A stretch of DNA of 64,000 nucleotides from Castor canadensis. Lineage: Eukaryota; Chordata; Mammalia; Rodentia; Castoridae. The notes under the pieces are model-generated. The model made no database searches. It saw only the letters and a list, made by a program, of their open reading frames with translations, and was not told the origin of the DNA. A program made the translations under genes and the position numbers. Positions 6,783 through 48,300 of this stretch are shown here, piece by piece; within the stretch, counting starts at the first letter, position 1, and every line of letters begins with the position of its first letter. Location: the NCBI RefSeq assembly GCF_047511655.1, contig NC_133403.1, positions 13,203,014 to 13,267,013 of the forward strand, written 5' to 3'.

Positions 6783-7883
6783 CTAGGTGCTTGCTTTCCC
6801 CACCTCTGCTCCTGAGATGTGATGGTCTTTAGCTCTGGAGGTCTCGGCCAGCCTATCCTCCATTCTGTCCTCATTCTCAGGCACAACCAGCAGCCGGTGC
6901 TGGGTTTTGGCCCCCAGTTTGTGGTCAGGTCGGTGTTCAGGTCGGTGTTCAGGCCGGTGTTCAGGTCTTGAGCCTGACCGGGCATCTAGTTTGCACTCGG
7001 TCCGGTATTTGCCCTCCCCCTCCCTTTTGAAGGAACCAGAAGACATGACTTTGGGCTTGGGGGGCTGCAGCCACGAGTGGCTGAGGATCTCGTCAATGTG
7101 CAGCCGCCGGTTGACGTCCGGCTGCAGGATGCGGTAGATGAGGTCTTTGCACTCACCCGTCAGGTTCTTGGAGCGCGGAAAGTCCACACGGTGCTCCTTC
7201 TGGATGCGCAGCATCTTTTTGATGTCGGAATCATCATAGGGCATGGAGCCACAGACCATGATGTACAGGATCACGCCCAGGCTCCAGATGTCGTACACCT
7301 TGGGCTGGTAGGGGATGCCCTGCAGCACCTCGGGGGCTGCATAAGCCGCTGACCCACAGAAGGTCTTGCTGAGGACAATACGACCACTGCCATCCCTCAG
7401 GCAGTGCTTGGAGAAGCCGAAGTCGGACAGCTTGATGTTGAAGTCCTTGTCGAGGAGAAGGTTCTCGCATTTCAGGTCTCGGTGGACGACGTCCAGGTCA
7501 TGGCAGTACTTGACAGCTGAGGAGAGCTGGCGGAACATCTTGCGTGCCACATCTTCGTGCAGGGCTCCCTGGCACTTGATGAATTCAAGGAGGTCACCCT
7601 GGACGCCCAGCTCCATGATGATGTAGATGCGCCCATCAGAAGTCTCAAAGATCTCATAGGTCTTGATGATGGAGCGGTGGTTGACAGTTGCCAAGATGTC
7701 CATCTCCCGAGGAAGGAATCTCTCCACAAAGTCAGTGGGTGTTTTCTTGCGGTCGATGATCTTGACTGCTACATTGAACTTTAGGCGCTCAGAGTAGGCA
7801 GATTTCACTTTTGCGTAGGAGCCCTTGCCTAGATTGATTCCCACGATGTAACCCTTCTTCCTTAGGACTGCAGCATCGTCCAT
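6783..7883 (-). CDS. TSSK2: Testis-specific serine/threonine kinase 2, intact and intronless
   Basis: A single-exon, 366-residue protein kinase of the CAMK-like TSSK family, which phosphorylates TSKS and is needed late in spermiogenesis (family knowledge). Visible kinase parts: glycine loop GKGSYAKV (19-26), VAVK Lys41, HRDLKCEN with catalytic Asp136, DFG Asp154, activation-loop Thr174 in SKTFCGS, and APE near 183-185. The start [20 protein letters not shown] matches remembered human TSSK2 closely. The C-tail ends in [20 protein letters not shown] as in human, but is about 8 residues longer through an RPEH repeat. TSSK1 lies 4.6 kb upstream on the same strand, and ESS2 converges from the other side. 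Residue 192 is in LQGIPYQPK, where remembered human TSSK2 has LQSIPYQPK; this falls in a stretch identical to TSSK1. Confidence 0.98.
6921..6968 (-). repeat. TSSK2: In-frame 12-bp tandem repeat in TSSK2 tail (RPEH/RPDH)
   Basis: Four 12-bp units (6921-6932, 6933-6944, 6945-6956, 6957-6968) encode RPEH three times and RPDH once. Remembered human TSSK2 has two such units. Period 12 keeps the frame. Confidence 0.9.
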
Positions 7884-8029
7884 GGTGCCTGGAGCGGCTG
7901 GTGCCGCTGCCGTCTACATCCCCTCCCCACAGGGGCCAGCAGGCATTGTCTTCATTTCCACTGTGGGGAGGCGTCTGGCTAAGCTGGGCCTGGACTTGGA
8001 GGGGTGGAATGCTCAGCATTGTCGCCAGG

Positions 8030-8050
8030 TGACTTCAGCGAATGAAGTCA
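8030..8050. promoter_or_regulatory. TSSK2: CRE-like inverted repeat upstream of TSSK2
   Basis: TGACTTCA (8030-8037), spacer gcgaa, TGAAGTCA (8043-8050): two CRE-like octamers (one mismatch from TGACGTCA) in inverted orientation, 147 bp before the TSSK2 ATG. The same arrangement with the same spacing precedes TSSK1. A CREM/CREB-type site is inferred. It could also serve a divergent plus-strand transcript. Confidence 0.55.
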
Positions 8051-8469
8051 TAAAGCCAGGCTGCCAGGAGTGAGGACTGGGCTGGAGGGAATGAGGCCTC
8101 TGGAACCCTGGAAGCCAGGCTGGCCTGGAAGGAGTGCTCCCCTCCCTGCCCACTGGAATGAAGCTGGCACCCAGGCCTGGGATAGCCCACCTCTGCTCCT
8201 CTTTATTGTTGTGGCTTCCCCCTCACAAGTCAGGCCCAAGGGGAAGTGGCCCCATGCCTTTTCCCCCTCCCCTGGCATGGGAACTTACTTCACCAGGACC
8301 AATTTTTTATAGCTTCTTTGGGGTGTAGTGAGAACACCCTGTAGAGTGTATCCTTGGAACCAGTGGTGTCTGCCCCAGTCTAGCCAGGCCAGTGGTGGCT
8401 CCAAGCCCGGTGGAGTAAAGCAATTCTGCTTGGGATGATGCTAGCTCCTTGGGCTATTGAGCTGGACGG
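8051..8469. other. Region between TSSK2 promoter and candidate plus-strand exon
   Basis: Unique sequence without repeats or coding signals. It would be the divergent promoter and 5' UTR if the candidate gene starting at 8470 is real. Confidence 0.4.
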
Positions 8470-8503
8470 ATGAGCTGCTGCTGCTGCTTCTGCTTCTGCT
8501 GTG
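8470..8503 (+). CDS. Candidate gene exon 1 (cysteine string)
   Basis: ATG at 8470 is followed by a TGC-rich tract encoding [11 protein letters not shown], then a consensus gtgagt donor at 8504 (leaves in phase 1). A chance microsatellite is the alternative reading. Confidence 0.28.
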
Positions 8504-11500
8504 GTGAGTGAAGGCGTGTGTGGGCGCGGGAGGGCAGGCAGTGCTCTGGGATGTGCTTGAGTGTCTAGCTAGATGACTGGCTAGATGGCTAGATGGCCAG
8601 AGCTACAGGCAGATGCATATTCTGAGAACCAGAACAGGCTTAGAGGATGGGTTGGGCTTCACCCATGTAGAAGAGGTGATAAGGTACCCAGACAGGAGAG
8701 GGCTTCTGAGTATGGCTGAGTGACACAAGTCAGGAAGAGGGAAGAGGAGAAAAAATTTGGGCTTATTTAAGTGATGGGCAATCACTGCACAGTCCAACTC
8801 CTGTTTTAAGGTGGTCACTGGCAGAAAAAAGATAATCGGCTCTGGGGTGAGTATTTAGGCCAGTGCCTTGGGCCAGGTCTGAGGAGGCTAGGGGGCAGGA
8901 CTTTGTGGGTCAGAGAGAGCTGAAGAAAAGCCAGCCTAGATCTGTTCAGTGGGGGTGCAGGCAGTGGCAGGGGGATCTGGAGGTTGGCTGGTGGGGGCGG
9001 GGCGCTGGGAATTGGCAGCCCTCAGAGCATTGCCCATGAAGAGCAAGCTTTGAGTGTATGCGTGGGTCCACAATTCCATCATTTTGGATGTTTGTGAGCA
9101 GAGGGCAAGGGTTGCCTGGTGGAATCCTGGCATTGCTCATTATTTGCATCTCAGACTGTCTTTTGTACCCGGTGCATGACTATTTGCTTTGGAAACTGGC
9201 ATCCCGTATGCATCTCCTTGGCCACTTCAGAAGCACTGACATCCAATCGTCATCCATCACAGGACCCTGTGCCCACAGGGAGCTGCCAGGACAGGTGAGC
9301 CAGGGCTGCTGTGTTCAGGAGAGCAAGGAAGACTGGTTTCTATAGGGTGTGTGCAGTGGCGGGGGTGGGGGGCGGTTAGGGAGTGACAGAAGGTTTCAAA
9401 GAGGAAGTGATGTAGGAGCTTAGGTACGGAAGATCAGCAGGGCTCCACCAGGTGGACAAGAAGGACAGGATGTGCCAGGATGTGACCTCTTGGCTAAAAG
9501 TACAACTGTGTGGACACATCTGTAGGGAACACCTTGTGTGATGCCAGGCTGAGAGGATGGGAAGGGTGGGTTGATGCTTCCAAGATGACACCCTGCCAGC
9601 AGTGCTGAGTTCCACTGGCTCTGTAGCACAGTGGCTAGTAGCTCTAGCTTGATGCATTCCTTTTTCCTGGGTGTAGTTTTTGGCTGAAGAGACCATAACT
9701 TCACTCCTTTGTGTCCTAGAAGGGGTTGGCTGTAAAATTTACAGGTCAAGAGCCAGATCATGACACTTCTCTCTTACCCCACATCCCTTGTACCCCCAAG
9801 TTCTCTGTTTGTGGGGCAGCTCTCTGAATATGTGCCTTGTTGGCCAACTCCATCACCTCATTCTCTCTTTTTTTGTGGAATCTGTTCCCTCACTTCCTAC
9901 TGTTGCCCAGGATCATGTGGTCTCTCTGGTTACTAGAAGACATGTCAGAGGAGGCAGCAGTTGGCTTGGCACAAGCAGAGCTGCTGGAACATGCAGCAGG
10001 CAGCTTCATCCAGGATGTGTATGAGGTGCTGGGGTACCTGGTGTATTCCAGGAAGAGGTCAGATCAGACTGGGGACCTCCAGGGTTACTGCAGTGTTGCA
10101 GTCCTATGGGTCAGGGATCTGCACACTGGGAAAGACTCCCCCACCCTGGGCTTCACTAGTGCACTGACCTATTTATCCTGCAGGTATTGAGGATCTGCTT
10201 TAGGTGTGGAGGAACACTGATGAACTAGAGACAGCCATACCTTCCTGGAGCCCAGAGGCCAGGGAACCTCAATGTCATACCAGCCTGTGTGAGTGCACCG
10301 TGGTGACTCTGCCATGACACAAGGTCAAGGAGCTATGAGGACAGAGAACTGGGAACTGTGCTTAGGGAGGCTGAGGATGGCTGAAGTCTGAGGAGTCAGG
10401 GAGGTGGGAGAAGGATGAGTATGGGTAATGCCCGCGATGGCCTAAGGGTCACTGTGTGGAGGGAACATGAACAGATGATGGGGGTCACCTTTAAGTCCTA
10501 GAGTCTCTGAGGGTCACTGAAGGTGATGGAGCCAGGGTTGAGCAACCCACAGTAGTAGTCCAACAGGGTGAGGCCATCTGTGGAGGAACCACAGATGGAC
10601 CTGCTGCACCAGTGCTGTCCTTTCGCACGGTCACCAACCCTTTCTGAGTTGTTTCTCCATCTATAAAACACAGAGCAAGTATTCCTCCCGCAGCCCCTCC
10701 CACCCAGGCTACCTCCCTGGATGGGTTGCAAGTTGCCCCCAGGTCTTCTTGGTGTCTTCTATCCAGAGGACCACAGTAGGCCTACAGGGATGGAGGAGGG
10801 GGCACTCATGAGCTTCTCAACACCTCTGCACCCATGTGCCCCATGTACCCAGCGGTCCTGCTCCACTACTAGTTTCTTCAGGGGAAGAAACGGTGCCTCC
10901 AGTGTTCCTCGGGACCTCTTCTGTTCCTAGACCCTGGGTACTCAGGTCTCCTCAGCAGAATTCACAGGAACAGACTACAGAACACTGGCAGGGATCCCCA
11001 GAAGGCTTTGTGGAGGCCAAGGCCCCTTGGCTGAGCCTGGGGAGGTGGGGAATCTTTGGGGATGAGTCTACAAGTATGACTGTGGTATGTATGTGTGATG
11101 AGGGCATGGGGATGAGGAAGGACAATATGAAAAGGCCAGGTCTGGGAAGACCTCAGTGGCCAGGTCCTGGAATCCTTCCTGCAGACAGTGGGAGCCTATA
11201 CTGGGTGTAGGAGGGGGGCTGTGGCCATTGTGGGAGGTGACAAGAGTAGGGGCCCTGGGTGGAGATAGACTGGATGTGGGGAAAGGTACAGGAAGGGCAG
11301 GTTCAGGATCTCATCATACTTCTTTTCTCAGGGGAATGGAGTTGGGATCTTCCCAAGGTGGAGATGCAGGAGGCAAGGTGAGTCTGAATACCCTTGTTTT
11401 TGTATGTTTTAAACCCTCAGGCCCCCATAAGGTGAAGAATGAGGTGAAGAGAAAGAGGCCAGCACAGCCAGGTGAGGACTGCTTGGGATGTGGTGCAGGC

Positions 11501-14500
11501 AGGGTATGCAGCCCTACATGGTAGCCAGTAGTGCCAAATGTAGGCCATGGATACTGGTGGCTGCCTTCCCTGTGCACAGGGTCCGGGCATGCTTTGTGAG
11601 GATGCCTATCCTAATTGCTGGTGTTAGCTTCCAAGCTTTGGTGGGATATCACCCCGGGGGATAGGCTGGGATTGGAAGTGAAAGGAGTGTGGTCACGGTC
11701 ACAGAGGATTGGGGGACACGTTGGGCCATCCAGTGGAGTCCCTGGGCTGGTGAATGACCACAGGGTAGGGTAACTCAGGGCACTGTTGAGAACTGGGTGC
11801 TGGCTGGACATAGGGGAACATGACCCATGGTAGACAGTAGAAACATCAGTTGCCCAAAGGTTAAAGAGCGCAAGAGGACCTGCAAGGCTGGTCCACCTGC
11901 CTTCTGTAGTTTCCCCAACCCCTGCTGGCAGGCTTGTGCATCTGGGTGCCCTAAATGCAGACAGGGCCAGTTCTCCCAGAGTGATGTTGCCCTAAGTTTG
12001 TCCTCTCCTTCCATCTCCCCACCCCCACTCTGCACTCGTGCACTTTCTTCTGGATGCAACATCTTCCTTACTCAGCTCTTTGCCCTGGCCTCTGCCCTTC
12101 CAGGGTTTTCACCCTTATCCCAGCCTTTGGCTAGTGCAGCTGCCTCAGCCTGAGGTCACAGTATAGATTGGACACTCTGGGATGTGTTTTCCCATGAGTG
12201 ATGATTCGCAATCCAAGTAGGAAACCAGGGGGAGTCCAGGACTACAGTCAATTGGGCAAAGACATTCACCTTGGGGTCTGCACTAATGTAGTGATTTATT
12301 GCTTCTTTAGCCATATGAGCTATCAAGTTCAAAGGGAGGGAGAAGAGACATGAAAATAGTAGCTCATCCAGTACTGGCTCGTCTCTTGACTTCTAAGCTC
12401 AGGCTTCAAGCCATGAGCTCTGTCTCATTCCTTACCGGCCCCATGGGCCGCAAGAGGCTCATTAGGTGTGTGTCTCTGGAGGCTGTTGGGGGGTCCCTGC
12501 CTCTGTCTCTTTGGTCAGCTGCTCGTTGCTGATGCTCACCGTCTCTGACTGCCTAGCCACTTGCACTGTGTCCTCCTTGGGTTTGGTCTTGGGCTGGGCC
12601 TCTTCCTGAGGCTCTACCTTGGTGGCAGATTTTTTTTCAGAGCCAGGTTCAAGGGTCCATGAGGGCTCAGTGGCCCGGGAGCTCTCCCCTTCCTTGTTGA
12701 CGGCTGCAGAGGACAGACCCCATGCCTTGGGCTGCACCCAGCAATGACTGAGGATCTCGTCAATGTGCAACCGCCGGTTGACGTCCGGCTGTAGCATGCG
12801 GGAGATGAGGTCTTTGCACTCTCCCGTCAGGTGCTTGGAGCGTGGGAAGTTGAGGCGGTGCTCCTTCTGGATGCACAGCATCTTTTTGATGTTGGAGTCA
12901 TCAAAGGGCATGGAGCCACAGACCATGATGTACAGGATCACGCCCAGGCTCCAGATGTCGTACACCTTGGGCTGGTAGGGGATGCCCTGCAGCACCTCGG
13001 GGGCTGCATAAGCCGCTGACCCACAGAAGGTCTTGCTTAATGTCAGGCGGCCGCTGTCATCTCTCAGGCAGCGCTTGGAGAAGCCGAAGTCAGTCAGCTT
13101 GATGTTGAAATCTTTGTCGAGCAGAAGGTTCTCACACTTGAGGTCTCGGTGGACGACGTCCAGGTCATGGCAATACTTGATGGCTGAGGAGAGCTGGTGG
13201 AACTTCTTGCGAGCATCATCCTCTTTCAAGGCTCCTCGGGTTTTGATGAATTCTAGGAGGTCGCCCTGGACCCCAAGCTCCATGACGATGTAGACCTTGC
13301 CATCAGATGTCTCAAAGATCTCGTAGGTCTTGATGATGGAGCGGTGGTTTAGCATGGCCAGAATCTCAATTTCCCGGGGAAGGAATTTCTCCACAAAGTC
13401 CGTGGGGGCTTTCTTGCGGTCGATGATCTTGACTGCCACATTGAATTTTAGGCGCTCAGAGTAGGCAGATTTGACTTTTGCATATGAGCCCTCTCCTAAA
13501 TTTATCCCCATGATGTAGCCTCGTCGTTTAAGGATGGCAGTGTCATCCATAGTGCAGGGAGCAACCAGTGCCTCTGAGGCTGCCTTCTACATCCCTGCAG
13601 GCCAGCAGCGTCCTCATTTACACTGTGGACAGAGTCCTCTGGGCTGGCTGGGCCTGCTGTCCCTGCCTCCTAAGAGGCCAAGACTCTAGGATGGAACATT
13701 CAGCACTGTCTCCCAGGTGACTTCAGTGGGTGAAGTCACAAAGGAGCGCCCTGGGGAAATGAGGCTCTGCCTTGAGCCACTTGGACTTAGAACCTTGGAA
13801 GGTCTGCCATTGGGCTGGAGCAGACTGAAGGCCTGCAGAGTGGCCTTGTGGCTGGGACCTGAGGTAGGAAGGGGTTATGGAGGACATGGAGTCTAACTAT
13901 GTTCCTAAACCCATAGTCAGGGCTGCTTGTGGAGTGGTGAGGCTGATTGTTATAATCCAGGGGAACGTAGAGTGGGTGGTCCTATCAGTCAGGGCCCCAG
14001 CAGGAAACAAGACACATTGAATTTAGGATAATCTGAGGAATGATTTACAAAGGTGGGAGCAGAATGGAGAGAATCCCAAATGCAATGTCCTAAGGTTGAC
14101 ATAGACCCCTGGCCTGCATAAAAGAGGGAAAGAATGGAGAGAGAAGTATAGAGAGGGCAGTGACCCTGAGAGAGGCAGTGACCTTTGGTTGAGGTAAAGA
14201 GCCAGGCTTCCATGACTACATGAGCTATTATCAGAGGACATCCCTGACCTCTTTTCCTTCCTTTCAGCTCTTGATGCTGTCCACACAGGCAGCATGCAGA
14301 CACAGAGCAAGGCCAAAAAGGGTAGAGGTGAATCAGGAAGGGCAAAGAGCCTTGATGTAGCAGGTGCTATAATTTGGGAAACCAGGACTGTGCCCCTTTG
14401 CTGCATGGCTTGGCTAGCCTTTTCACCTCCCTGCACTTCTATTTCCTCATCTGAACCTTTGTTGGCATGCTGCTCTTACAGTGGCTCTGCAGGAGGGACA

Positions 14501-15203
14501 ACTGGCAGGAATTGTGCTCTTGGCTGTGAGTTCCCTCCTAGGGACCTGCCCAGCCCATGAACCTGGCTAGGCTCCCATGGCAGATCTAGGGCTGGAGGTG
14601 AGGGCTGGAAGACTGTATGCTGGGCCTGGATCCTGAGCTAAGCACTAGCAGCTGCTCCTGGCAGACTGCACAAATGCCAAAGGAAGCATGGACAGACAGC
14701 TTTGTTTCTGCTGGCAGGGCCCCCCCCCCACACCCTGTTGTGACAGGACCCTTTGTCCAGCTCCTCTCTGGTCCAAGTCTTGGGAGAGTAGGAGGCCTTG
14801 AATGTCTGGCCTAACCTTGGGTTTGACCTTAGCCTTATCCACTTACAGGAAATAAGTGCCCCTCTCTCATATGACCCCGTGCATTACAAGGATGGAATCC
14901 TGAAGACACTCAGGAGTGAGTCAGGAGAGATGGACGTGAGTGAGGTTGGGGTGGGTTCCCACTAGCTTTGGCCCTTTCCACCTTTTCTCTGTTTCTCATC
15001 TTCACCTTCTTCCCCAGCCCTGACCAGCCACTACCAGTCCTGTAAGCCACAGCTTGTGGTCCTTCCCCTGGACAGCTTGTTTTTCCTCTTTAGAGGACAC
15101 TTCATCTGCTGTCTCTCCCACGTTCATGATGACAGGTTCAAGGTCAGCACTTGCAACTTCATGATGACAGGTTTGAGATCAGTACTTGTAACTTTTTCTC
15201 AGA
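8470..15203 (+). CDS. Candidate undescribed gene of about nine small exons, TSSK1 nested in antisense
   Basis: Not recognised as any known family. The candidate coding exons are 8470-8503, 9937-10057, 10853-11044, 11332-11377, 11432-11471, 14268-14321, 14482-14525, 14849-14915 and 15018-15203. All have AG/GT borders, each is open in the used frame, and the phases (1,2,2,0,1,1,0,1) agree at every junction. The predicted product is about 260 residues: cysteine-string start [11 protein letters not shown], an acidic/amphipathic segment [20 protein letters not shown], a Pro/Ser/Gln-rich middle ([19 protein letters not shown]), a basic stretch [12 protein letters not shown], then [17 protein letters not shown] and [24 protein letters not shown]1 lies in the 2.8-kb fifth intron on the opposite strand. 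Weak points: two acceptors were chosen from alternatives (before 9937 and 11432), the donor gtcaga after 10057 is poor, the 8470 ATG has a weak context and sits in a CTG-like repeat, and the 3' end is unclear. It could be a decayed gene or a lncRNA. Confidence 0.4.
9937..10057 (+). CDS. Candidate gene exon 2 (amphipathic helix)
   Basis: Acceptor ggttactag before 9937 (an alternative cccag lies before 9911); donor AG|gtcaga is weak. Encodes [12 protein letters not shown], then [20 protein letters not shown] and YLVYSRK. The helix resembles a PKA-RII anchoring helix in its spacing of A, F/I, V/Y and L residues. An in-frame ATG at 9942 is a possible alternative start. Confidence 0.4.
10853..11044 (+). 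CDS. Candidate gene exon 3
   Basis: The longest open exon of the set (64 codons, phase 2 in and out), with acceptor catgtacccag and donor AG|gtgggg. Encodes [20 protein letters not shown], then [20 protein letters not shown] and [18 protein letters not shown]. The composition suggests a disordered segment. Confidence 0.42.
11332..11377 (+). CDS. Candidate gene exon 4
   Basis: A strong acceptor (ttcttttctcag) and donor (AAG|gtgagt). Enters in phase 2 and leaves in phase 0. Encodes [15 protein letters not shown]. Confidence 0.42.
11432..11471 (+). CDS. Candidate gene exon 5 (basic)
   Basis: Encodes [13 protein letters not shown] and leaves in phase 1 at a gtgagg donor. The better-looking acceptor (accctcag before 11421) would give a stop after exon 4, so the weaker ataag acceptor before 11432 is needed. 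This is the main phase weakness of the model. Confidence 0.33.
12295..12300 (-). promoter_or_regulatory. TSSK1: TSSK1 poly(A) signal
   Basis: TTTATT on the plus strand (AATAAA on the minus), about 162 bp past the TSSK1 stop, matching the spacing seen for TSSK2. Confidence 0.6.
12462..13550 (-). CDS. TSSK1: Testis-specific serine/threonine kinase 1, intact at the ancestral locus
   Basis: A 362-residue intronless protein kinase, paralogous to the neighbouring TSSK2 and aligned with it without gaps through the kinase domain. Motifs: GEGSYAKV loop (19-26), Lys41, HRDLKCEN with Asp136, DFG Asp154, Thr174 in SKTFCGS. The C-tail (from about 280) differs from TSSK2 and matches TSSK1: [13 protein letters not shown], then acidic/glutamine-rich repeats and QQPPETHT at the end. 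The family acts in late spermatids with TSSK2 and TSKS. In human the copy at this locus (TSSK1A) is a pseudogene and the functional gene TSSK1B is elsewhere; here the syntenic copy has a full frame and a canonical DFG. A poly(A) signal follows, and a CRE-like inverted repeat lies upstream. Confidence 0.96.
13719..13739. promoter_or_regulatory. TSSK1: CRE-like inverted repeat upstream of TSSK1
   Basis: TGACTTCA (13719-13726), spacer gtggg, TGAAGTCA (13732-13739), 169 bp before the TSSK1 ATG. Octamers and spacer length equal those upstream of TSSK2, although the spacer bases differ. Confidence 0.55.
13740..14267. other. Region upstream of TSSK1
   Basis: Mostly unique sequence. 13985-14170 resembles an old interspersed repeat (cagtcagggccccagcagga near its start), but the family could not be named. 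No gene seen apart from the candidate intron that spans it. Confidence 0.4.
14268..14321 (+). CDS. Candidate gene exon 6
   Basis: A strong acceptor with long pyrimidine tract (cttttccttcctttcag). Phase 1 in and out. Encodes [17 protein letters not shown]; donor G|gtagag. Confidence 0.4.
14482..14525 (+). CDS. Candidate gene exon 7
   Basis: Acceptor tgctcttacag and consensus donor gtgagt at 14526. Phase 1 in, phase 0 out. Encodes [14 protein letters not shown]. Confidence 0.4.
14849..14915 (+). CDS. Candidate gene exon 8
   Basis: Acceptor atccacttacag; donor A|gtgagt at 14916, with a second consensus donor 36-40 bp further on. Encodes [15 protein letters not shown] and GILKTLR. Confidence 0.4.
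15018..15203 (+). CDS. Candidate gene last exon
   Basis: Acceptor ccttcttccccag. Phase 1 entry gives [18 protein letters not shown] and runs to a TAG near 15203. The last part crosses a 35-bp tandem duplication, and a gtaagc donor at about 15041 would allow a shorter exon. No poly(A) signal is seen close by. Confidence 0.28.
15123..15192 (+). repeat. 35-bp tandem duplication
   Basis: Two adjacent 35-bp copies (15123-15157 and 15158-15192), each starting ttcatgatgacaggtt and ending acttgyaac, differing at a handful of bases. Confidence 0.9.
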
Positions 15204-16185
15204 GAGCTTAGCTCCATCTTTGCCCAGGCTGACCTCCATGCAGATGTGGCCTTTCCTTCCTTCTCCAGCATGTAGACAAGTCCTTCCTCCACGGAAGGCC
15301 AGCTGTGCTCCAGTCTCTAGGATCTGGGCTTCCTTGTTATCTCTCCTCTCTCTTAGGTCATTTCCTCAGCTGTTGACACATTTTCAATTTTGTGTGCCGG
15401 TAAATCCACACTTGTCTGTTCCTTACCAGGTTGTACATTCCTTCCCCATTCTCAGAGCCTCCCAGCCCTCCAGTTTTCTTCCTCTTCTACAGCAGTTCAG
15501 CCTTTTAAAAGATCACTTTAGGATGCATCGTTGAACACTGGACCAGACAGGTGTAAAGACCCTCCGAGTCCTAGGGTTCTACTTTGCCCTGTGAGTTCCC
15601 GACGACCGCGGCCCCACCCTGCCCCCAGGCTGCACCTCGTACAGTGTCCGTCCTTGTGGTCCTGTGCCCTTTGCCCCTCCCCCACTGCTCTTGCCCCGCC
15701 CTGAGACCCTACCTTGCCCCTAGGCTCCGCCCCTGAGCCCCACCCCTCTGCTTAGCCAATGGCACGCTTCACTCCTTATAGTCCCGCCCTCCTCTCAGGT
15801 CCACCCCTCAGTCGCCGCCCTCTGCCATCCCGCCCTTAGGCCTCGCCCCACGCTTAGCCGATGAGCCGCAAGCAGCTGGGTGCTCGCGGCTCCGCCCACC
15901 GCCTCCACGCTCATTGGCCGGCGCTGGAGTCGCGGGCGGGAGGCGGGGCGGTGCGGGCCCAGGCAGGACGGCAGCCATCTTGCGCGGAGCCGGAATCGGA
16001 GCCCCGAGTCTGTGGCCTAGAGCGCGCGCGAGCTCGCGACCTTGTCCTGCCGCGGGCGCGCCTCACGGCAGCCCCGCCGGACTCCTCGTTCTTCGCCTCT
16101 CCGTGCCTGGCCCCGGCTTGGCCCTCAGACCTCAGCCCGGCCCGGTCCGGCCTCTCCGCGGGGTCACGCGGCCGCCCCGGAGACG

Positions 16186-16200
16186 ATGAACGGAGGATAA
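16186..16200 (+). promoter_or_regulatory. DGCR2: Four-codon upstream ORF abutting the DGCR2 start
   Basis: ATG AAC GGA GGA TAA, with its stop ending at 16200 directly before the DGCR2 ATG at 16201. It is the only ATG seen in the likely 5' UTR. It has A at -3, whereas the DGCR2 ATG has T at -3. This points to termination-reinitiation or leaky scanning (inference). Confidence 0.8.
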
Positions 16201-16279
16201 ATGGTGCCCAAGGCAGACAGCGGTGCTTTCCTGCTGCTTTTCCTGCTCGTGCTCACCGTCACCGAGCCGCTGCGGCCAG
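16201..16279 (+). CDS. DGCR2: DGCR2 exon 1 (signal peptide)
   Basis: Encodes [20 protein letters not shown] and TEPLRP, leaving in phase 1 at CCAG|gtgcgc. Identical in remembered human DGCR2. The start follows the short upstream ORF directly. Confidence 0.96.
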
Positions 16280-19200
16280 GTGCGCGCCGCGGTGGGGAGG
16301 ATGGGGGCGCGGTCGGGGGCGGGGCGGGTGGCCGGGGGTGGGGCTCGGGCTGCGAATCTGGCCGGGGTCCTGCCGGGACCTCCTTCCGCCCCCCACCCCA
16401 TCCCCACCCCCTGACCTCCAGCGGGCGCTGCGGTGCCCCGGGGAAGGGGCAGGCGACGTCGGACGCGCGGACCGCCGGGCGCCCTGCACCTGGGTTCGTA
16501 GTGCTTCGCACCCTGCGCCGCTCCGTCCTCGAGGAAGTCGCTTCTGGGCCCAAGTCCACGAAGCACTGCGTGCTCTGAGAGCCACTGGCCAGGAGCTTTG
16601 CCGCGTCCTCCTGCTGGCCCGGCGTCGGGATCGAGTGGAGGGCTGGACGGGGGGGGAGGCGGGGGCGGCTCGCGGAGGCACCTGGCTTCCCAGGCGTCCG
16701 CCCAGCTGTGGCCTCATGCCAACCTTTCAGCCTTGGACAGCGGTGACTGGGTGGTTTATTGTCACTAGATGAGGCGCTGCTCCAGAGACGCCCTCAGCCC
16801 AGAGCCCGGCCCAGAGGAGGTACTAGGAGTTCGTCAAGTACTGTGTGCAGAGGCAGAGACCACGCGGAGGTGCCAAACACTTAGTAGTGCTCCATTTACG
16901 TGACGTAATTAAATGCTTTTGGAACTCCCCTTGAAAGTTTTTGTGTCTGTGTCTCTGGTGGGGAACCAGAGGGCCGGTTTCTACCTAGTTTAGATAGCAC
17001 TGAACTGCGCCAAGAAAACATAACAATCGGGCTGGAGGAGTGGCTCAAGTGGTAAAGCACCTGCTTTGCAAGCATGTAAGCCCTGAGTTCAAACCCCAGT
17101 CCCACAAAAAAAAGAAAACATTACAGTCCCCAAAAGCCAGCTTGGTTTTTCTGTTAGGCACGGGAGAACCAGTGCCACATGCACTGTACTTTCAGGGGCA
17201 GGCAGAACACTTTACAATAAGAAAAAAATGAAATTTAATATATTTACGTCAAACACAGCCATCTTTATGCCAGTATAGTGGAAAGTACAGTTCTTAATAT
17301 TTTTTAACGAAGGAAGGTTCCCTTGAAGGCTGAAGTGCCCAAGGCCATCTTTTATGAGTGACAACAAGAGTGGGTGTGGGAGAACAAGAGGTGTGCACCC
17401 CTCTGTAGTGCGTAGCCAGGCTGTCACTCTAGACCCTCTGTCCCTTTTGGCTCTGTGCCTTTGTCATCTTTGTAGAATGTCTGCACTCCCCTCATGTCTA
17501 CTTGATCGCCAAGGCCATGGGCCCACGCTCAACCTGAATAGACTCAGCTGGGCTCCCGGTGTGTAGCTAGTTACTACACCTGATTGCTTTCTGTCTAGTG
17601 GAGTGACTGGTGGTGAAGTGGCTTTGGTAGGAACATAAGCCAAGAAAAAGAGTCATCTGTGGATGTTTTGCATGGGGATTCTTGAGGATCACAGTCAAAG
17701 GGTTTGTGAGTTCTTGTGATTAAATTCTTTGTAAACATGTGTATACCTGTAGAGAGGTGAAATGTCATCCTGTTCTGATTCCTGGGTCCCAGTTTTGCAG
17801 ATGAAGTCACTGAGCACATGTAGAGAGATGAAGTCACACATGCCTGTCTTCCTTGTGCTTCTGGTTCCAGGTCTGGGCTCTTCTTCCTGGATCACAGAGG
17901 TGGCCTAATTTCTTTTCTCTTGCCAGTCTGTTCACATATGCTGTCAGCTAGCCAGGAGTAGTTTAGAAAGTATATGTGAGCTCCTGCCTGCTCATCACCA
18001 AGAATGTACAAATGCAGAGAACACACCTCTCTAGGAGTGCCCAATGTGGAAGAAGAGTCTGAGTGTAAATCAGTCAGTATACTCCTGTGTGTTAAGTACC
18101 CTTGAATGTGAGAGGCCAGAGGCAAGTGACAGATGGCCATCCATTTGAACCTTTGTAATAGGGGAAATCTTCATGGGAGACCTTATGCTGAGATCTGAGT
18201 GGGACATCGTGTGAGGGTGGCTCTGTAGAGGGAGCAAAGTTACCCTTTAATTCCATGGCTCTCCAGACCAGAACTTTGCAGCAGCCCCTGATGTTGTCTT
18301 AAGTTGCCCTCCAAAACGTGGGGCACTCCAACTGGCTCCCTGACTTTCTTGGGCAGCAAGGGCAGGTCTTGCTCTGGGTCAGATGTTTTCCCTGTGTGCT
18401 GGTTGGGGTGCCTTTTTACATATTCACTCTGTCCTTCCCGAGCATGCCAGATGGGTCTTGTTGGCTGATGCTTTTAAGAAGAAGGTGTTTCTTTGGTCTT
18501 GGTCTGCATGCTTTCTGTCAAGTCTTGGCTTTGAACCATACTTGGGTCTGAGGAGGGAGAAAACCCGCCTTTTGGGATGGAGGCAGGTAAAGAGGGTGTC
18601 TTCTAACTCCTGCATCAAGTACAAGTCAAGCCACTTGGGGCTCCTCTTTAGTACAGGGCAGGGCCTTTCAGAGTTGGGGGTATGGCAGCATGTGCATGCA
18701 GAACTTGACTTTGTTGAAGTTTCTTTTTAAGTGCACATTTGATCTTTGTTGATTAAGGATGTGTTGTTACATGTCAGGTACTGTTGTAAGAACTAACTTA
18801 TGTATTGACTTAACTTTCAGATGGTCCCTGGTGGACCATTATTAGCCGCATTTTACAGATGGAGAAGCTGAGATACAGAGCATTCATACAGCTGAATGGC
18901 TCAAGATTAGATTTTAGTCCTATGAGTCTGGCTGGTTCTGTCATTATGCACCCTTGACTGAGTCCCTCTAGCTGTGTCTTTCTAGTCCTGGCCTCATGAG
19001 AATCTCAGGTTATGCTTTGAACTGTTTTCTTAACCCTAGCTGTGGAGCTGGACAGTTGAGGAGCCTGCACTGCTCTTCCTGAATGCCTCCTGAGTTTCGA
19101 GTGCTTTCTTCTACAACCCACTGTTGTTTTGCACTTTGTAGAATTTGTCATGATGGCACATTTGACTTTTGGGTTAGCAATTTCATTCTTTTTGGTTGGA

Positions 19201-36302: not shown

Positions 36303-39300
36303 ACCCCTCCTGTTGCCCTAGACTCCCTTAGGAGGTGAGCAGTGTATCCTCTCATCTCGTCTCCTTTGCAGTCAGTACAGAGCTTTCTCTTTCTATACAT
36401 GCTAAGCAAACTCTTAACCACTGAGCTACATCACCACCCCAGTACAAAGCTTTACTAGTCAGCTTCTCCTCACCATTTCACAATGAAATGCTTCACCCAG
36501 GCTACTTATGAAGTAACAGAGGTTTGTCTTGATTCATGATTTGGGAGGTTCAGGTCACTGGTTTGGGCCTCTGATGAGGACAGCACGTCATGACAAGAGC
36601 ATGTGTCAGAGTGAGTGCTCACAGCTCAAGCCAGGAAGGGGAGCAAGCAAGTGAGGGTGCACAGTCTCTTGAGGTCATGCTCCTAGTGACCTGAGGACCT
36701 TCTGCCACCTCTTAAAGGTCCACAGTACCTCCCACACTGAACATCTAGATGATGTTTGATGACAACTCAGGGTCTGTTTGAAGTGACACACAACATTGAT
36801 TGTCTTGGGAGGAGTATTGCTCTCTGCCCTGCCGCAGTTGAGCTTGCAGTATTATAACCATTCTTGACCCTTCCTTTGGGAATGAGTGTCTGTGCCCTCC
36901 CAAGGAAGTGGGTTATGGGCAGCTGTCTGGTCTCTGGCTCATCCTTCCAGGGCTTATTGGTGGCAGGGACTTGCTGCTCCAGGTCTCTGCTCCTACTGCT
37001 ACTTCCTCAATAGTCTCTTGCCCTTTGGTTCTATAGAACTCCGGTGCAACCCTGGACAGTTTGCCTGTCGCAGTGGCGCCATCCATTGCATACCCCTCCC
37101 CTGGCAGTGTGACGGCTGGGCAACCTGTGAAGATGAGAGTGATGAAGCCGACTGTCCAGGTGAGTGTGTGGAGCATGTGTAATGCACATGGACCACTTCT
37201 TCGTCATAGCTGGGTGATTGTGCCTCCCATGAGTGGTGGAAAAGTGTGATCTAATAATCTGTTCTGTCTCCACACATTGCAAAGATAGAGTGAGCCAATT
37301 CCTACCCCTCTATTTCTCTTTTAAATAAAATAGTTTCCTGGTATGGACAGACCCAGAACTAGCAAGCTGACAAGGCCAGAGAGGGGAGGCAGTGAGGTAC
37401 TACCAGTCCTGGGCTTGCATGACGCCTCCTTGGAGGGGTGTGCTCTCAGTGCTTCTCTGGCCTCACCCTTGCCCTGGCTCTGGATGTATGTGCCTCTTGA
37501 TTTGTTCTTTTTGTTTGTTTATTTTGGTGGTACTGAGGTTTGAACATAGGGCTTCACACTTGCTAGGCATGCACTCTACCACTGAGCCACTCCCATCAGC
37601 CCTGTAGGTGCCTTTTGAGACCTGGCCAGAATCCTGACGAATGTGTTTTTGGAGACTGACCTTGGCATTACCTATTCCTCTTGCCCACTCATTTTCTAGC
37701 AACTGGGTGCTCATGGGTTTTCTCATCCTAAAGAGGCCACAAAAATTCTAAATTGCTGGCTTTCCACCTGGTTTCTATTGCAGCATCTTCAAGGAATAGA
37801 AAGCAACCCCATGAACCACAGTTCACTGCATCTGCCATTCTCAACTTAGGATAGGTAGGAGGTGTAGCATCTCATGCATGCCTCCATATAAGCGGGTGTA
37901 TGTGAGACACACACATACATGCACACGCTGACCTAAGACCCTTCGTGGTTCTTAGATCATAGGACAAGCTGGGTACAATGGCTTATGCCTATAACTCCAG
38001 CTACTTGAGAGACAGAGATCAGGAGGACTGCAGTTTGAGGCCAGCCCTGGCAAAAAGTTAGCAAGATTCCCATCTCAATAAACAAGCAGGATGTGGTGAT
38101 GTGCACCTTGACTCCAGCTATTCAGGAAGCTAAAGATAAGAGGATCACAGTCTGAAGCCAGTCCTGGGCAAAAATGCTAGACCCTGTCCAAAAAATAGCT
38201 AAAGGAAAGGGGTTGGGGGGCGTGGCTTCAGTAGTAGAGTGTCTACCTAGCAAGCACAAAGCCCTGAGTTCACATCCTGGTACCACCCCTCCCAACCCCC
38301 CCCCCCGCCCCCAACAAAGAATCCCAGGGTTGAACTCAGGTCTGACATTTTAGATTCCTTATGAGCTGGCATAATTCTTCTTTGCCAACCTGATATATCA
38401 CTATTTTCCCTTCAGTAGTTCAGCTGAACTGTTTCCTATACCTAGTCCATTAACAATTTTGTAGTTGCATGCTTCCTTTATTTCTTTTTGTTTTCCTGGA
38501 ATTCCCTTGTTCTGTTTCTACTTAAATAAACTCTGCCATGCTTCAAGACTTGGCTCACATGCTGCTGCTACAGTGCAAGGGTGTCTGTCTTACTCTGGCT
38601 GAGTCACCTGCCAACACCCGATAGGTCCTCCTACATGACTTCTAGAGCCGCTGGTTAATTCTCACCATTTCTCTCCTTCCAGTCCATGAACTTCCAAGTG
38701 CAAGAGACTTTCTCCTTCCTTGGTGGGACCTGGCCTAGGATGTAGAAGGTGTGCTGTAATTCCTAGAGGCCAGGTGCTAAAGGAGAACAGATTCATTCCA
38801 CCGGGGCATCAGGGAGTATGTCCAATAGAAGGTAACAGTTGAGCTTGGCCCAGTTCCTTGAGGGGGTTCCAAAATAAGATCCAGAGCTTGTTGTGGTGTG
38901 GTGGGATGCACCTGTAGTCCCAGCTACTCAGAAGGCTAAGGCAAGAGGATCACTTGGGCCCAAGAGTTTGAGGCGTCTTTTTCTTTTTCCCTCTCTAATC
39001 CCCTCCTCCTGCCCCTCTCCCTCTCCTCCTTTTCTTCTTTTTTTTTTTCCTTTTTCCTTTTCCTTTCCCCTTTCTCCTTTTCCTCTGCCTGCCTGCCTTC
39101 CCCTCTCCCCCCAACCACCTCTTTCTTTGTCGTTTTTTGTTTTGGTGGGACTGGAATTTGAACTCAGGGCTTTGTATTTGCAAAGCAGGCACTCTACCAC
39201 TTGAACCACATCTCCATTCTATTTTGCTGTGATTATTTTGGAGATGGGGTCTCATGAACTATTTGCTGGCCTCAAACTGCCATCCTCCCCATCTTAGCCT

Positions 39301-42300
39301 CCCAAGTTTCTAGGATTACAGGTGTGAGCCACTGACACCCAGCAAGACCCCATCTCTTAAAAAACAGGAGAGATGGCCTGGTCCATGTAGTTAAGAGGGG
39401 GACCTCCTGATCATCTCCTGAGCTTTTTTTCCATCATCAGGTCATTGTCTCTGGTGGAATTGTCTGCCTTTTCAAAGGAAGCATTTGAATGATGGCCTGG
39501 TCAGGACCCTCTGGGACCAGCCTATGTCTATGACTGGTTCCTTGAGTCAAAGCCCACAGACAGTAGACTTCCCAGCAGATGGGATGCAAAGGCTTTATGA
39601 CTGGTCATCCCAGGGAGGACCAAAGACCCTGAGTGAAGCTTCCCCAGGGCTGCTCTTAGGGTGAGACCTTATATCCAACTTTTTGGAAAATTTTCTGAAC
39701 AAAGAACCAAAGACCTAGTTCTTGACTTCCTTTTAGATGGAAACACTGCTTATTTGTTGTTCTCAAAGTGCCATTTGGCTTCACTTTAACTTTACAGATA
39801 CTGTTGTAGATGCTGCAAAAAATAGTAGCCACACTTTTGCTTGTCATCTTGTTCTGTGCACTGTGGTCTTGTTGAAGGGAAGGGCTAGCTAGGTCTGATT
39901 TCTCTTCCATACCACATGGCCTGGCACAGAGGTGGCATCAGCTCTTCACTTGTGTGGAGGTTGCTATATATTTTCCCCAGACAGAAAAATAAAATGCATC
40001 TCATAGAAGCCCAATGTTGTGAATGGGTGGCCTGCTCCAGGATCTAAGCAATGGGTACACAGCAACCAGGAATGGTGTGTACAGAGGCACTGAGAATGCC
40101 AGGGCCTGGGTGTGGTTGAGGAGGGCCAAGACTCTGGCCAGCGTGTTGGGTTTCACCTGGCTTCCCCTTTATTCCTGTGTCTGTGCTTGTGTTGTGGTGC
40201 CAGCTCACAATCTGTGAGGGAGCTGATTGATTTCTCATAGTTCTTTTCAAACCCCAGTACTGCCCCACCCCCAACACATACACGTACACACAAAGAATAC
40301 ACGGTACTTATTTTCTCACTTCCTTGAAGTAATAACTGTTAGAAATTTCATCATTTTTTTCTAATTTATTTTAAAATAAATTTAAAAGAAAAAACACATT
40401 ATGGAGTCAAGGCCTCATTAATATTCCCTCCACACGCACCTCCAAGAAAAAAAAAAAAAAAAGAAGAAAGTCCTTTTATGGGAGGGAGTAGGAGTTAGTG
40501 GATAACTGCTTGTGTTCTAAAAGGTGTGGCCTTCTATGTGTAGGGAGAGTTTAAACAGCCCAGTGGAAAGCCCTAGCCATGCTCAGTCTTTGAATGTAGA
40601 CTTCAAGGCTTCTGGAACAAACATACGAGCTTACTTCATTGCTCTTCTCAAAACATGCTAAAAAAAAAAGTTTTATAAATATATAAAACCTCAGAAACAA
40701 AGAAAATGAGAGAACATCAGTAATTTCAGTAAGAGACCAGTAATTTCAGCATGTTTTCTTTTGTGCTCTACCACTTGAGTCATGCCCCCAGCCCTTTTTC
40801 CTTTAGTTATTTTTTGAATAGGGTCTTGAGTTTTTGCCCGGGGCCAGCCTTGGGCTGCAGTCCTCCTATCTATGCCTTTCACCTAGCTGGGATCACAGGT
40901 ATGAACCCCATTACACCCAGTTAGTTTGTTGAGATTGGGGCGGGGCGGGGGGTCTTCCCAACTTTTTTCCCATACTGGCCTTAAACAGTGATCTTTCCAC
41001 ACTCTGCCTCCCAAGTAGCTGGCATTATGGGCACCACTGCACCCTGCTCAACATGTTTTTAAAGATGAGAAATGAGTGGTAGGAGTCACACCTCACAGCA
41101 CACACCTGTAATCCCAGCATTCAGGAGGCTAAAACAGGAGGATGGCTTCAAGGTCAGCTACTTAAGAAAATTGTCTTTAAAACAAACAAACAAAAAACCA
41201 TGGTGGGTGGTGGAGAAAATGCATTGTGTGTCTTCCCACTCCCTTCTGGGCTCTTTCTATATTTCAGAGGCTAATAAGCTAGAGCCATAGCACTCAGAAT
41301 TCCCTGCCATCAAAGTTTTGGCCAAGGAGATGCATCTCAGGAAAGGTAGAAAGCTTTCTTCCTCTGGCAGTGCTGTGGGGCATGGGTTAGATGAGTTTTT
41401 GCAGGGGCTTCCATATTCCCCCACTGATGAGCTGTCTCAGTGCTGTAGAGCACCTGTGTTGTTGCCAGCAATTTCATGCATCCCAGAAGCAATAGTGGCT
41501 TCAGAGGTGCAGAAGGTTAGTGGTAGCCTACTTTATTTTTATTCTCACAGTAGCCTTTCCTTCTGTTTTAAAAGCATCTAATTTCCTGTAGTAAACCACT
41601 TTGTGTTTGAAATGCCTAGCATGGGACTGGTGGGGTGGCTCAAGTGGTAAGAACACCTGCTTAGCAAGCGTGAGGCCCTGAGTTCAAACCCCAGTGCTGC
41701 CAGAAAATAAATAAATAAAGTGAAATGCCTGGCATGGTTTCTGTTTTCCTAATGGAACCATCTTTGATATAAATAGGAATTAAAAATGTGTAAATTTGTT
41801 GTTCTTCATTAGTGCTAGGGTTAGAACCCAGGGCCTCACACATGCTAATTACATCTTCTATCACCATACTATATCCCAACCTAAAATTTTTGATGGAGAA
41901 AAATTTACAGTTTTATTAAGAAGTATTAAAGAAGTCTCAAATAAGTAGTGTTTTTGGCTAGGAAGACTCTATAAGGTTTTTATGGGGAATGTGACAAGTC
42001 AGTTCTAAACTGTTGGGAAGAATAAAGGCCTGATGAGTGGAGAACATTTACCCTATCAGTGTTAAGGCTTACTTTAAAGTTGTCTTAGGAAGACACTGAC
42101 TGTGAGATACATGATACATGTCACTGGGCACAGTGCAGACTCCTCATACACAGTGCTGTGACAGCTGGAAAAGAATGAAATTGGATCCCTAACTCACAAC
42201 ATACAGAAAAATCAGTTTTGGGATAAATTAAAGAAAAAAAATTAATGATTGGGGGGGTGGATAAAGGAGAATGATAGAGGGGGTGAATTCAAATATGATA

Positions 42301-45300: not shown

Positions 45301-48300
45301 AGGAGGGAAGTTACAGCTGGGAGAACGTTCCTCAGCTAAAAAGCTAAGTCTCCATTATGGCCTCCACTTCAAGGCTCACCTGATCCATGACCAGGACCTG
45401 AACCACCTATGCTCACTGAGCCTGTGGCTATCCAGACCACTCTTCCCCTAAACACAAAAGAGTCTGTGCTTTCCAGGCTCTGGAAGAAAATTCCACTGTG
45501 AATGTTCAATAGACTTTTTTTTTTTTTTTTTTTTTTTGCTTTCTTTCTTTTGGCAGCACTGGGGTTTGAACTCAGGGCCTCGTGCTTGCTAAGCAAGCAT
45601 TCTGTCACTTGAACCACACTGCCAGCCCTCAACAAATTCTTGACATAGCATCCTTCATTAGAAGGGTCAGAACAGAGTGGCTAGAGGTAGGTGACTGTAG
45701 CATGTAAAACAGAGGTTACATGTGGGGGCTTGGAAGCAGGCTGCTATGACTAGCTGGCTGGCCTGTACCACTTAGTGGCTGTGGTCCTTCGGGCAAGTAA
45801 AGCAGGGACAAGAATAGTGCCTGCCTTTCAAAAGGAGGGGAGGGGATTTAAGAGAAATAGAGGGGGTGAATATGCATGTATGGAAATATCAATGAAACCC
45901 TTTGTACAATTAATATATGCTAATAAAGTTATTCTTAGTTTAGCAGAGAAAAAAAAAAGAATAGTGCCTGCCTCTTTGACTGTTGTGAGGATTAAGTGAC
46001 AAGATACATGGTGCATAGCAAGTGCTTCGAAAAAATGGTACACAGTAATTAATTCCTCGATGTATATTAGCAGTTACTGTTACCTTATTAATTCAGGGAG
46101 CAAAAGAAAAGTTTAAAGATATATTCTGACAGCAAATGGCAGTCTAGGAAGTTCCAAGTTGTTATTCTACCTTAGAAACATTAAAAAACAACAAGAGCCT
46201 GGGTAAAATAACTGTACAGAAGCTCTGGAAAACAGAGGTCTTTGAGCCAAGCAAACACCTAATCAGGAAAAACGCATCCAGCCAGGTATGGTGACATACA
46301 TGGGAGCACTTGGGAGTTTATGTGTGAGGATCAAGAATTTGAGGCCAGCCTGGGCTATGTAGCAAGAGCCTTTTTTTTTTTTTCTTTAAGCCATATTCAC
46401 AACAGTAGGAAGTTCTGTAGCATTTTTATTTCCTCCCCAGTGACACAGCTTGGTCTCAGGGAAGTAACGTACTAATTCCCTCCTCCAATCTTCTGTGCAG
46501 CATTCTAGTCCTGTCTGGGGCTGCCTCACGGTCTGCTATCTGTTTCTCCTGACTTGGAGCTGAGATGAAGAAAAGTAGCAGAGCTTGATTGCATCTGGGA
46601 GAAGCTGTGGAAAGTGGCATGCAGTCTTTGTGAAAACTGCAGGGGGAGTACACATTTGGAGATGGCTGGGGCAAGGGACTATGGGTGAGGAATCCAGTCG
46701 AGCATTTGGAGGCTGCAGGTAGAACTCTGGGAAATTAAGACATTAAAAGGCAGCCCTGTTGATGTGGGAGTGAAGAAAAGCTCCCACACAGACTCAGACA
46801 AGATGCATGCACAGAAAAGACCTGAGACAACCTACAAAATCTTCACTTTGGGCTGGTCCCTTGGCTCAGACCAGCCTTACTAATTAGTGATGATCCAGTC
46901 TTCCAAGACTGGGAAAGGTGACTGATTTTGTACAAAGAAAGAAGAAAATATGGCCCATCTAGGGAAAGAAAAGAGCTGGGATATAGCCAGTGGTAGAGTG
47001 CTTGCCTGGCATTAAACAGTATCTTAAGTGTACTCAGGGAACTAGAGGAAAACATGGACAAGGAAATCAGAAAGTGACATATGAACAAAATGAGAATGTC
47101 AACAGAGAAATGATAAAAAGGAACAAAACAAAAACTCTTGGCCTGAAAAATACAATAACTGAATTAAAAAGTCACTAGATGGGTTTGAACAAGCAGGAGG
47201 AGGACCAGGCAAACTTCAAAATAGGACATTTGAAATCACTGACTCTCTGGGAACAAAAAGGAGAAAGATAAACAGAGCTTCCTCAAGCGCATATGGAATA
47301 CCTTCCAGGATAGATCATGTGTTAGCCCCCAAAACAAGTGTTAACAAGCTGGGCGCCAGTGGCTCACGCCTATAATCCTAACTACTTGGGAGGCTGACAT
47401 TGGAAGGATCACAGTTTGAGGCAAATAGTTTGAGAGACACCATCTCCAAAATAACCAGAGCAAGACAAATTGGAGGTGTGGCTCAAGTGGTAGAACACCT
47501 GCTTTGCTAGTACCTGCTTTGGAAGTTCAAAGCCACAAAAAAGTGTTAAATTTAAAAGATTAAGATCATACAAAGAATCCTTTTCTTTCAGTACTGGGGT
47601 TTGAACTCGGGGTCTTTTGCTTACTAGGCAAGTACTCTACCCCTTGAAGCATGCCCCCAGCCCTTTTTGCTTTAGTTATATTTTACATAAGAGTGTCATT
47701 TTTTTCCTGGGCCCACCTGGACTGCAACCTAATCCTGTCTTGCTGGGATTACAGGTCTGTGACCAGCTCTTTTTTTTTTTTGTGCCTACTGCAATCCTCC
47801 TGATCTGTGCTGGATGTCAGGCATGCACCACAGTACTCAGCCACAAAGCATCCTTTCTGATTACTATGGAATGAAACTAGAAATCTGTAATAGAAGGGAA
47901 ACTGGAAAATTCATAAATAGTACAGTTAAGCAATACTCTTAAATAATGATGGGTCAAAGAAAATCAGAAGGGAGCCGGCTGCTGGTGGCTCTCTCCTGTA
48001 AAGCTACTTGGGAGGCTGAGATCAGGAGGATCGCAGTTCAAGACCAGCCCAGGCAAATAGTTCTCGAGACCCCCCACATCTCCAAAATAGCCAGAGCATA
48101 GTGAAGAGGTCTGGTGGAGATGAACTAGTGTGGGTTGTAATACACATGTGCATGGAAGCAACCCTAGGAATCTCTGTACAGCTACCTTTATCTCAAACTA
48201 GCAAAAATGCTGTCTTATTATCTCATGTTTTCTTTTCAACAAAATTGGAGAAGAGGGCAGAACAGGTTCTGTCTGGAAGGAAGGGGTGTGTGGGGATGAG

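Follow-up and report, generated by a model that had tools for sequence, protein, structure and literature searches.

We tentatively favour a reading in which the DNA between TSSK2 and DGCR2 yields a spliced plus-strand transcript that diverges from the spermatid promoter of TSSK2, and perhaps also from that of TSSK1, and that carries a marginal reading frame. That the region gives rise to some spliced plus-strand transcript, taken over all the readings considered below, is probable. Three features are directly observed in the 64-kb window (the whole stretch of DNA that was analysed): the strengths of the splice sites, a frame that stays open across them, and an element present at both TSSK promoters.

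The TSSK promoters and a proposed divergent transcript

The gene order in the window is ESS2 (plus strand), TSSK2 (minus), TSSK1 (minus) and DGCR2 (plus), and these genes and strands bear out an earlier note on this DNA, which had placed the region in the ESS2–DGCR2 interval. The plus-strand ESS2 frame terminates at about 4.7 kb. TSSK2 (6783–7883) and TSSK1 (12462–13550) both have intact ORFs on the minus strand, that of TSSK1 being 362 codons long and lying within a large candidate intron of the opposite strand. On the plus strand again, DGCR2 begins at 16201, and more of its exons lie near 37.0, 57.2, 59.5 and 61.5 kb. The TSSK2 ORF contains a short tandem peptide repeat in its C-terminal tail.

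In humans, TSSK2 and DGCR2 lie inside the 22q11.2 deletion (PMC6554986). Earlier mapping of the minimal DiGeorge region gave at least 11 transcription units (PMC12071946), so the candidate transcript may already be catalogued. The texts returned by our literature search name no transcript in the TSSK1–TSSK2 or the TSSK2–DGCR2 interval, which is no proof of absence from print.

Upstream of TSSK2 we identified a symmetric CRE-like pair, TGACTTCA-N5-TGAAGTCA, at 8030–8050, and a second TGACTTCA-N5-TGAAGTCA pair is located upstream of TSSK1 at 13718–13738. When spacers of 3 to 8 nt are allowed, these are the only such pairs in the 64-kb window, one per TSSK promoter, which favours the divergent reading; TGACGTCA has zero occurrences in the same window, a point against it. 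The 31-nt block that holds the pair (8025–8055 and 13713–13743) is 87% alike between the two promoters. We propose that the pair acts as a two-way promoter element and that CREM may be relevant to its use. The text of a review on CREM counts Tssk1 and Tssk2 among the direct CREM targets, and in the table of that review Tssk2 is entered as bound and Tssk1 as unbound, with the expression of both lower in the mutant (PMC10454534); the entry for Tssk1 counts against the divergent reading. An origin in the TSSK tandem duplication was considered and rejected: beyond weak matches at E 0.1 to 0.4, alignment is confined to the promoters and reaches about 8055 and 13743.

Given this arrangement, we hypothesize that the symmetric pair at each TSSK promoter fires in both directions. 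A plus-strand RNA would leave at about 8.1 kb, reach the donor at 8503 and continue through strong sites towards DGCR2, with TSSK1 enclosed on the opposite strand. Its splicing would use a few very strong sites: the donors 8503, 11377 and 11471 and the acceptors 11332 and 14268. As read from sequence alone, the geometry would fit a divergent lncRNA, which may have a promoter region in common with TSSK2 and the opposite direction of transcription, and the symmetric element is in place. From the DNA we infer promoter use, transcription and tissue, and we lean towards a non-coding product; the marginal frame would then be either a fortuitous open frame in a non-coding transcript or the frame of a young or decaying small gene. 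Equally well, two separate divergent RNAs, one per TSSK promoter, would account for the groups of segments at 8.5–11.5 and 14.3–15.2 kb with no need for one continuous gene, and the pair at 13718 is a possible separate start for the downstream segments.

The proposed divergent transcript resembles known systems in part. In mouse testis the Catsper1 promoter drives a divergent lncRNA, Catsper1au, which likewise leaves the promoter of a male-germ-cell gene in the opposite direction (PMC5645346). Whereas Catsper1au is described there as intronless, polyadenylated and experimentally shown, our candidate would be spliced, is without a canonical poly(A) signal and is known as a stretch of DNA. Cabs1 and AntiCabs1 provide another likeness, an opposite-strand transcript at a spermatid gene (PMC7827751), but differ in that the candidate unit would hold a kinase in an intron of the opposite-strand unit.

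Splice sites and the possible chance assembly of in-phase chains

The earlier note had drawn nine short plus-strand segments as the exons of one small gene, and its description of their borders and frame was accurate. All eight acceptors are AG and all eight donors GT, each segment has one or more open frames, and the joined 784 nt give 261 codons with no stop, a common frame remaining open over all eight junctions. In the last segment (15018–15203) this frame continues to a TAG directly after 15208. Counted by hand, the nine segments have 2, 2, 1, 3, 1, 2, 3, 1 and 1 open frames. The prior chance of phase agreement at eight junctions is about 0.5%, or 1.6% if the junction 11377/11432 is left out, in both cases before any choice of sites. 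Agreement at that junction is automatic, since its 54-nt gap amounts to 18 codons within a single open ORF (11102–11521). The chain requires this gap to be an intron, and 54 nt is below ordinary mammalian intron length. Weak and strong sites are mixed in the chain. Among all AGs of the window acceptor 11432 reaches only the 62nd percentile, and among all GTs donor 14321 reaches the 82nd; percentiles of about 99.9 are seen for acceptors 11332 and 14268 and for donors 11377 and 11471.

Such a chain had been called unlikely by chance, and this claim does not hold, the literal chain scoring like many shuffles and control regions. Within 6120 nt, 176 acceptors and 85 donors match or exceed in strength the weakest that the nine-segment chain employs, and up to 25 open in-phase segments (40–200 nt each, with gaps of at least 54 nt) can be chained with sites of this kind. 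With so large a choice of sites, an open frame over spliced segments is easily met. Chains were scored on splice sites plus codon usage, with hand-entered splice matrices, a hand-entered human codon table and no hexamer model; the exon cost was set by hand, with several values tried and 15 used in most comparisons. At exon cost 15 the literal chain, its last exon extended to the stop, reaches 8.8 bits. A best chain of at least 8.8 is found in 84/400 order-1, 253/400 order-2, 265/400 order-3 and 142/400 local shuffles, and in 35 of 92 genome strand-windows. The number of chainable segments and the ordinary score of the literal chain favour the reading that there is no gene here, the chain having been assembled from the abundant AG and GT sites of an intergenic stretch with 53% G+C. 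On balance we regard this reading as somewhat unlikely. Should the signal be due to chance, it would usefully show how cheaply long in-phase chains can be put together from G+C-rich intergenic DNA.

Evidence against chance assembly comes from redrawing. A redrawn six-exon chain (9915–10057, 10853–11044, 11332–11471, 14268–14327, 14482–14525 and 14849–14965) is open over 231 codons and ends in an in-frame TAG. When a dynamic programme chose the chain, with TSSK1 cut out of the region and an exon cost of 15, the plus strand reached 37.1 as its best gene-model score vs 0.7 on its own minus strand. This score is counted in favour of the divergent transcript, and its strand specificity stands against chance assembly, as does the presence of several sites within about the top 0.1% of the window. 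On the same scale, ESS2 scores 69.0 and DGCR2 exons 3–5 score 46.7. The redrawn score lies above all 40 strand-windows from DGCR2 introns (maximum 18.8), these being twenty windows that overlap one another, taken on both strands. It also lies above 400/400 order-1, 400/400 order-2, 400/400 local and 398/400 order-3 shuffles; the 2 of 1600 shuffles that reach 37.1 are thus both order-3.

The genome controls comprise 92 strand-windows from 27 of 28 stretches, the remaining one (L014; 2 windows, 4 strands) having been dropped for Ns. The redrawn score exceeds 84 of the 92, and the other 8 lie in loci L005, L022 and L024, which were set aside after the scores were known, their genes being recognised by eye after scoring. 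We take L022, which adjoins the window, to contain ESS2 by its translation, and L024 to contain RANBP1; L005 has the look of a promoter region with possible zinc-finger sequence, an assumption less sure than the other two. Without these loci, 37.1 tops all 82 strand-windows (maximum 26.4). It is also above the retained control strands matched in G+C (48–58%), which number only 12 and again have a maximum of 26.4, a further point against chance assembly.

Composition, however, speaks for it. The G+C content of the candidate region is 0.531 vs 0.43 in the intron controls, and scores of at least 37.1 occur where no gene can be named on the scoring strand, at L005 0–6160 on both strands (46.8 and 56.8) and at L022 0–6160 on the minus strand (138.0). 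The score is therefore not specific in G+C-rich DNA. Compared with its own order-2 shuffles (25 each), the candidate has a z of 3.1 and ranks 26 of 98 strand-windows, so a margin this large over its own shuffles is common in real genomic DNA; this ordinary rank fits the absence of a gene and also weighs against the divergent transcript and against a protein-coding gene. The redrawn-chain signal is suggestive, standing above gene-free DNA in raw score and being unremarkable after correction for local composition.

On splice sites alone, the plus strand exceeds the 40 intron strand-windows at 6 of 6 settings and is equalled by 0–3 of 150 shuffles, which speaks for the divergent transcript. At 5 of these 6 settings, none of the three frames of the splice-only optimum is free of stops. 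Together with a strong donor that breaks the frame (11377, discussed below), these stops point the favoured divergent transcript towards an RNA rather than a protein.

Coding potential of the candidate exons

The open redrawn chain could also be an undescribed protein-coding gene of about 231 codons and six exons, made in spermatids with the TSSK kinases, which we consider unlikely. Its product would open with a long helix and continue into a basic and probably disordered middle. Codon scores of the candidate exons were compared with those of stop-free stretches, local and from introns; the stretches overlap.

The protein reading draws most on the codon usage of two segments, which is rare among stop-free non-coding stretches. 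The best candidate coding exon is 9911–10057 on the plus strand (9937–10057 in the earlier note), with its acceptor 9911 at the 97.5th and its donor at the 94.9th percentile and an ATG at 9915 or 9942. It scores 9.2 bits over 48 codons; none of the 348 local stretches scores as well, and 0.21% of the 1865 from introns do. The candidate last coding exon is 14849–14965 (TAG at 14963–14965), or alternatively an internal exon to 14915, with acceptor and donor 14915 at the 98.1 and 94.6 percentiles. Over 14849–14962 it scores 6.6 bits in 38 codons, which 0.1% of the 722 local stretches and 0.56% of the 3048 from introns equal. The two segments reach 0.17 to 0.19 bits per codon vs 0.16 to 0.39 for five known exons or ORFs taken from the same window. 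Modelling without alignment predicts 9911–10057 as one long helix, with a best pLDDT of 90.6 (74.8 to 90.6 over five models), and a single stop-free control stretch of equal length gave a poorer model at 68.9. The prediction is in favour of a protein, but a helix from a short stretch rich in Ala, Leu and Glu is weak evidence, such helices being common and the comparison having one control only.

Two of the exons between them count against a protein by their ordinary codon usage. The acceptor of 10853–11044 is uncertain (percentiles 82.8 at 10853, 98.8 at 10882 and 97.6 at 10931; donor 97.7), and the segment scores −0.1 bits, equalled by 20% of local stretches, or 2.4 bits, equalled by 7%, when begun at 10931. 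In 11332–11471, which the earlier note had split into 11332–11377 and 11432–11471 around the 54-nt gap, the acceptor and the rival donors 11377 and 11471 are all at about the 99.9th percentile, and the codon score is 0.5 bits, equalled by 24% of local stretches. Among the variants tried, only donor 11471 with the start at 11332 keeps the frame; donor 11377 leads to downstream stops. That a donor among the two strongest breaks the redrawn frame weighs against a protein gene, as does the better score of 11332–11377 in another frame; in 8470–8503, too, the best-scoring frame differs from that of the chain.

Two further segments are borderline. The codon score of 14268–14327, which ended at 14321 in the earlier note (acceptor 99.9; donor 14327 98.2 vs donor 14321 81.9), is matched by 11% of local stretches, or by 4% when the segment ends at 14321. 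That of 14482–14525 (acceptor 95.1, donor 94.2), which is open in three frames, is equalled in 9%.

The outermost segments were rejected as coding exons on their codon scores. Segment 8470–8503 has a donor at the 99.6th percentile and scores −2.9 bits in the claimed frame; it could be no more than the end part of a 5′ untranslated exon, and a coding reading of it is not supported. Segment 15018–15203 (acceptor 99.2) is probably non-coding, with a codon score of −4.0 that 73% of local stretches equal when it is taken to 15208. The earlier note had itself ranked these first and last segments weakest, rightly, as neither has a coding signal in the claimed frame. Its view that the middle exons (10853–14915) are the most convincing holds unevenly, given the ordinary codon usage of 10853–11044, and the best coding segment lies outside that range. 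Of the small gene it proposed, a gene-like signal on the plus strand survives, which belongs to the redrawn chain at about 9911–14965 and not to the nine segments.

Some local features accompany these segments. The stretch 15018–15493 is crowded with acceptors, nine of them at or above the 98.8th percentile, and within the last segment a 35-nt unit forms a tandem duplicate at 15123–15194, 86% alike. Unused plus-strand donors in the top 0.7% are found at 8846, 9294, 10567 and 14597, and the scoring programme favoured a 32-nt segment at 9263–9294.

Homology searches gave no relative to a protein. Pfam had no family at E up to 1 for the nine-segment and redrawn chains; PDB at E up to 10 had nothing for the former and, for the latter, one meaningless match to a ribosomal protein (E 5.3). 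A known protein family was rejected on these results. In the animal's own genome (2.81 Gb, 181 contigs) only the locus itself matched, with no paralogue seen and, by protein or DNA search, no retrocopy of the kind that would prove splicing; scans of viral and prokaryote contigs found no relative, as expected. The lack of a family, a credible PDB match, a paralogue or a retrocopy counts against a protein gene. On the other side, a comparison at E 0.01 found no match for either flank region elsewhere in the window, which favours a protein gene and led us to set repeat-derived exons aside. Orphan small testis protein genes, as a general kind, are likewise small, without recognisable family and situated among sperm genes; they differ in that coding here would be a candidate property.

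The plus strand has no AATAAA or ATTAAA between 8000 and 16300, and of ten rarer poly(A) variants just CATAAA at 14117 and GATAAA at 16196 occur after 13560. Downstream of both TSSK ORFs, poly(A) signals are present on the minus strand. The missing canonical signal speaks for the absence of a gene and against a protein-coding one, to which it is nevertheless not fatal, because other poly(A) signals are in commoner use in male germ cells. RNA signals in these cells have been described as different (PMC3482194). A protein gene is further disfavoured by a 2015 table of human coding genes, in which DGCR2, DGCR14 (ESS2) and TSSK2 stand for the region with none further among them (PMC4487986).

The candidate bears on work in mouse, where Tssk1 and Tssk2, with a 3.1-kb intergenic region between them, were deleted together, and where the resulting sterile phenotype is described as hard to attribute to either gene (PMC7401350). 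If mouse has a further transcript or protein encoded between the two genes and the deletions took it out, the double knockout would be confounded. It is decidedly doubtful that an undescribed sperm-cell protein gene lies around TSSK1 and between TSSK1 and TSSK2, so that the deletions could have taken part of it along and the sterility attributed to the kinases might in part be its own.

Very improbably, the segments are alternative upstream exons of DGCR2, with transcripts past 14915 splicing into exon 2 to give a form that lacks the signal peptide encoded by exon 1: this would explain the missing canonical poly(A) signal up to 16300, and the phase after 14915 in the nine-segment chain equals that after DGCR2 exon 1 (both 1), but such agreement is a one-in-three chance and loss of the signal peptide would misplace the disulfide-rich extracellular domains of DGCR2.

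A structured RNA was rejected as well, Rfam having no match at gathering score in 8.4–15.2 kb; in the whole window it has two tRNA matches, at 45.6 and 49.3 kb. Altogether, tRNA-like matches are located at 17033–17107, 37524–37598, 41628–41703, 45550–45624 and 49348–49407. Four are called tRNA-Ala by ARAGORN and two are found by Rfam, one being common to both, and they are probably SINE-derived.
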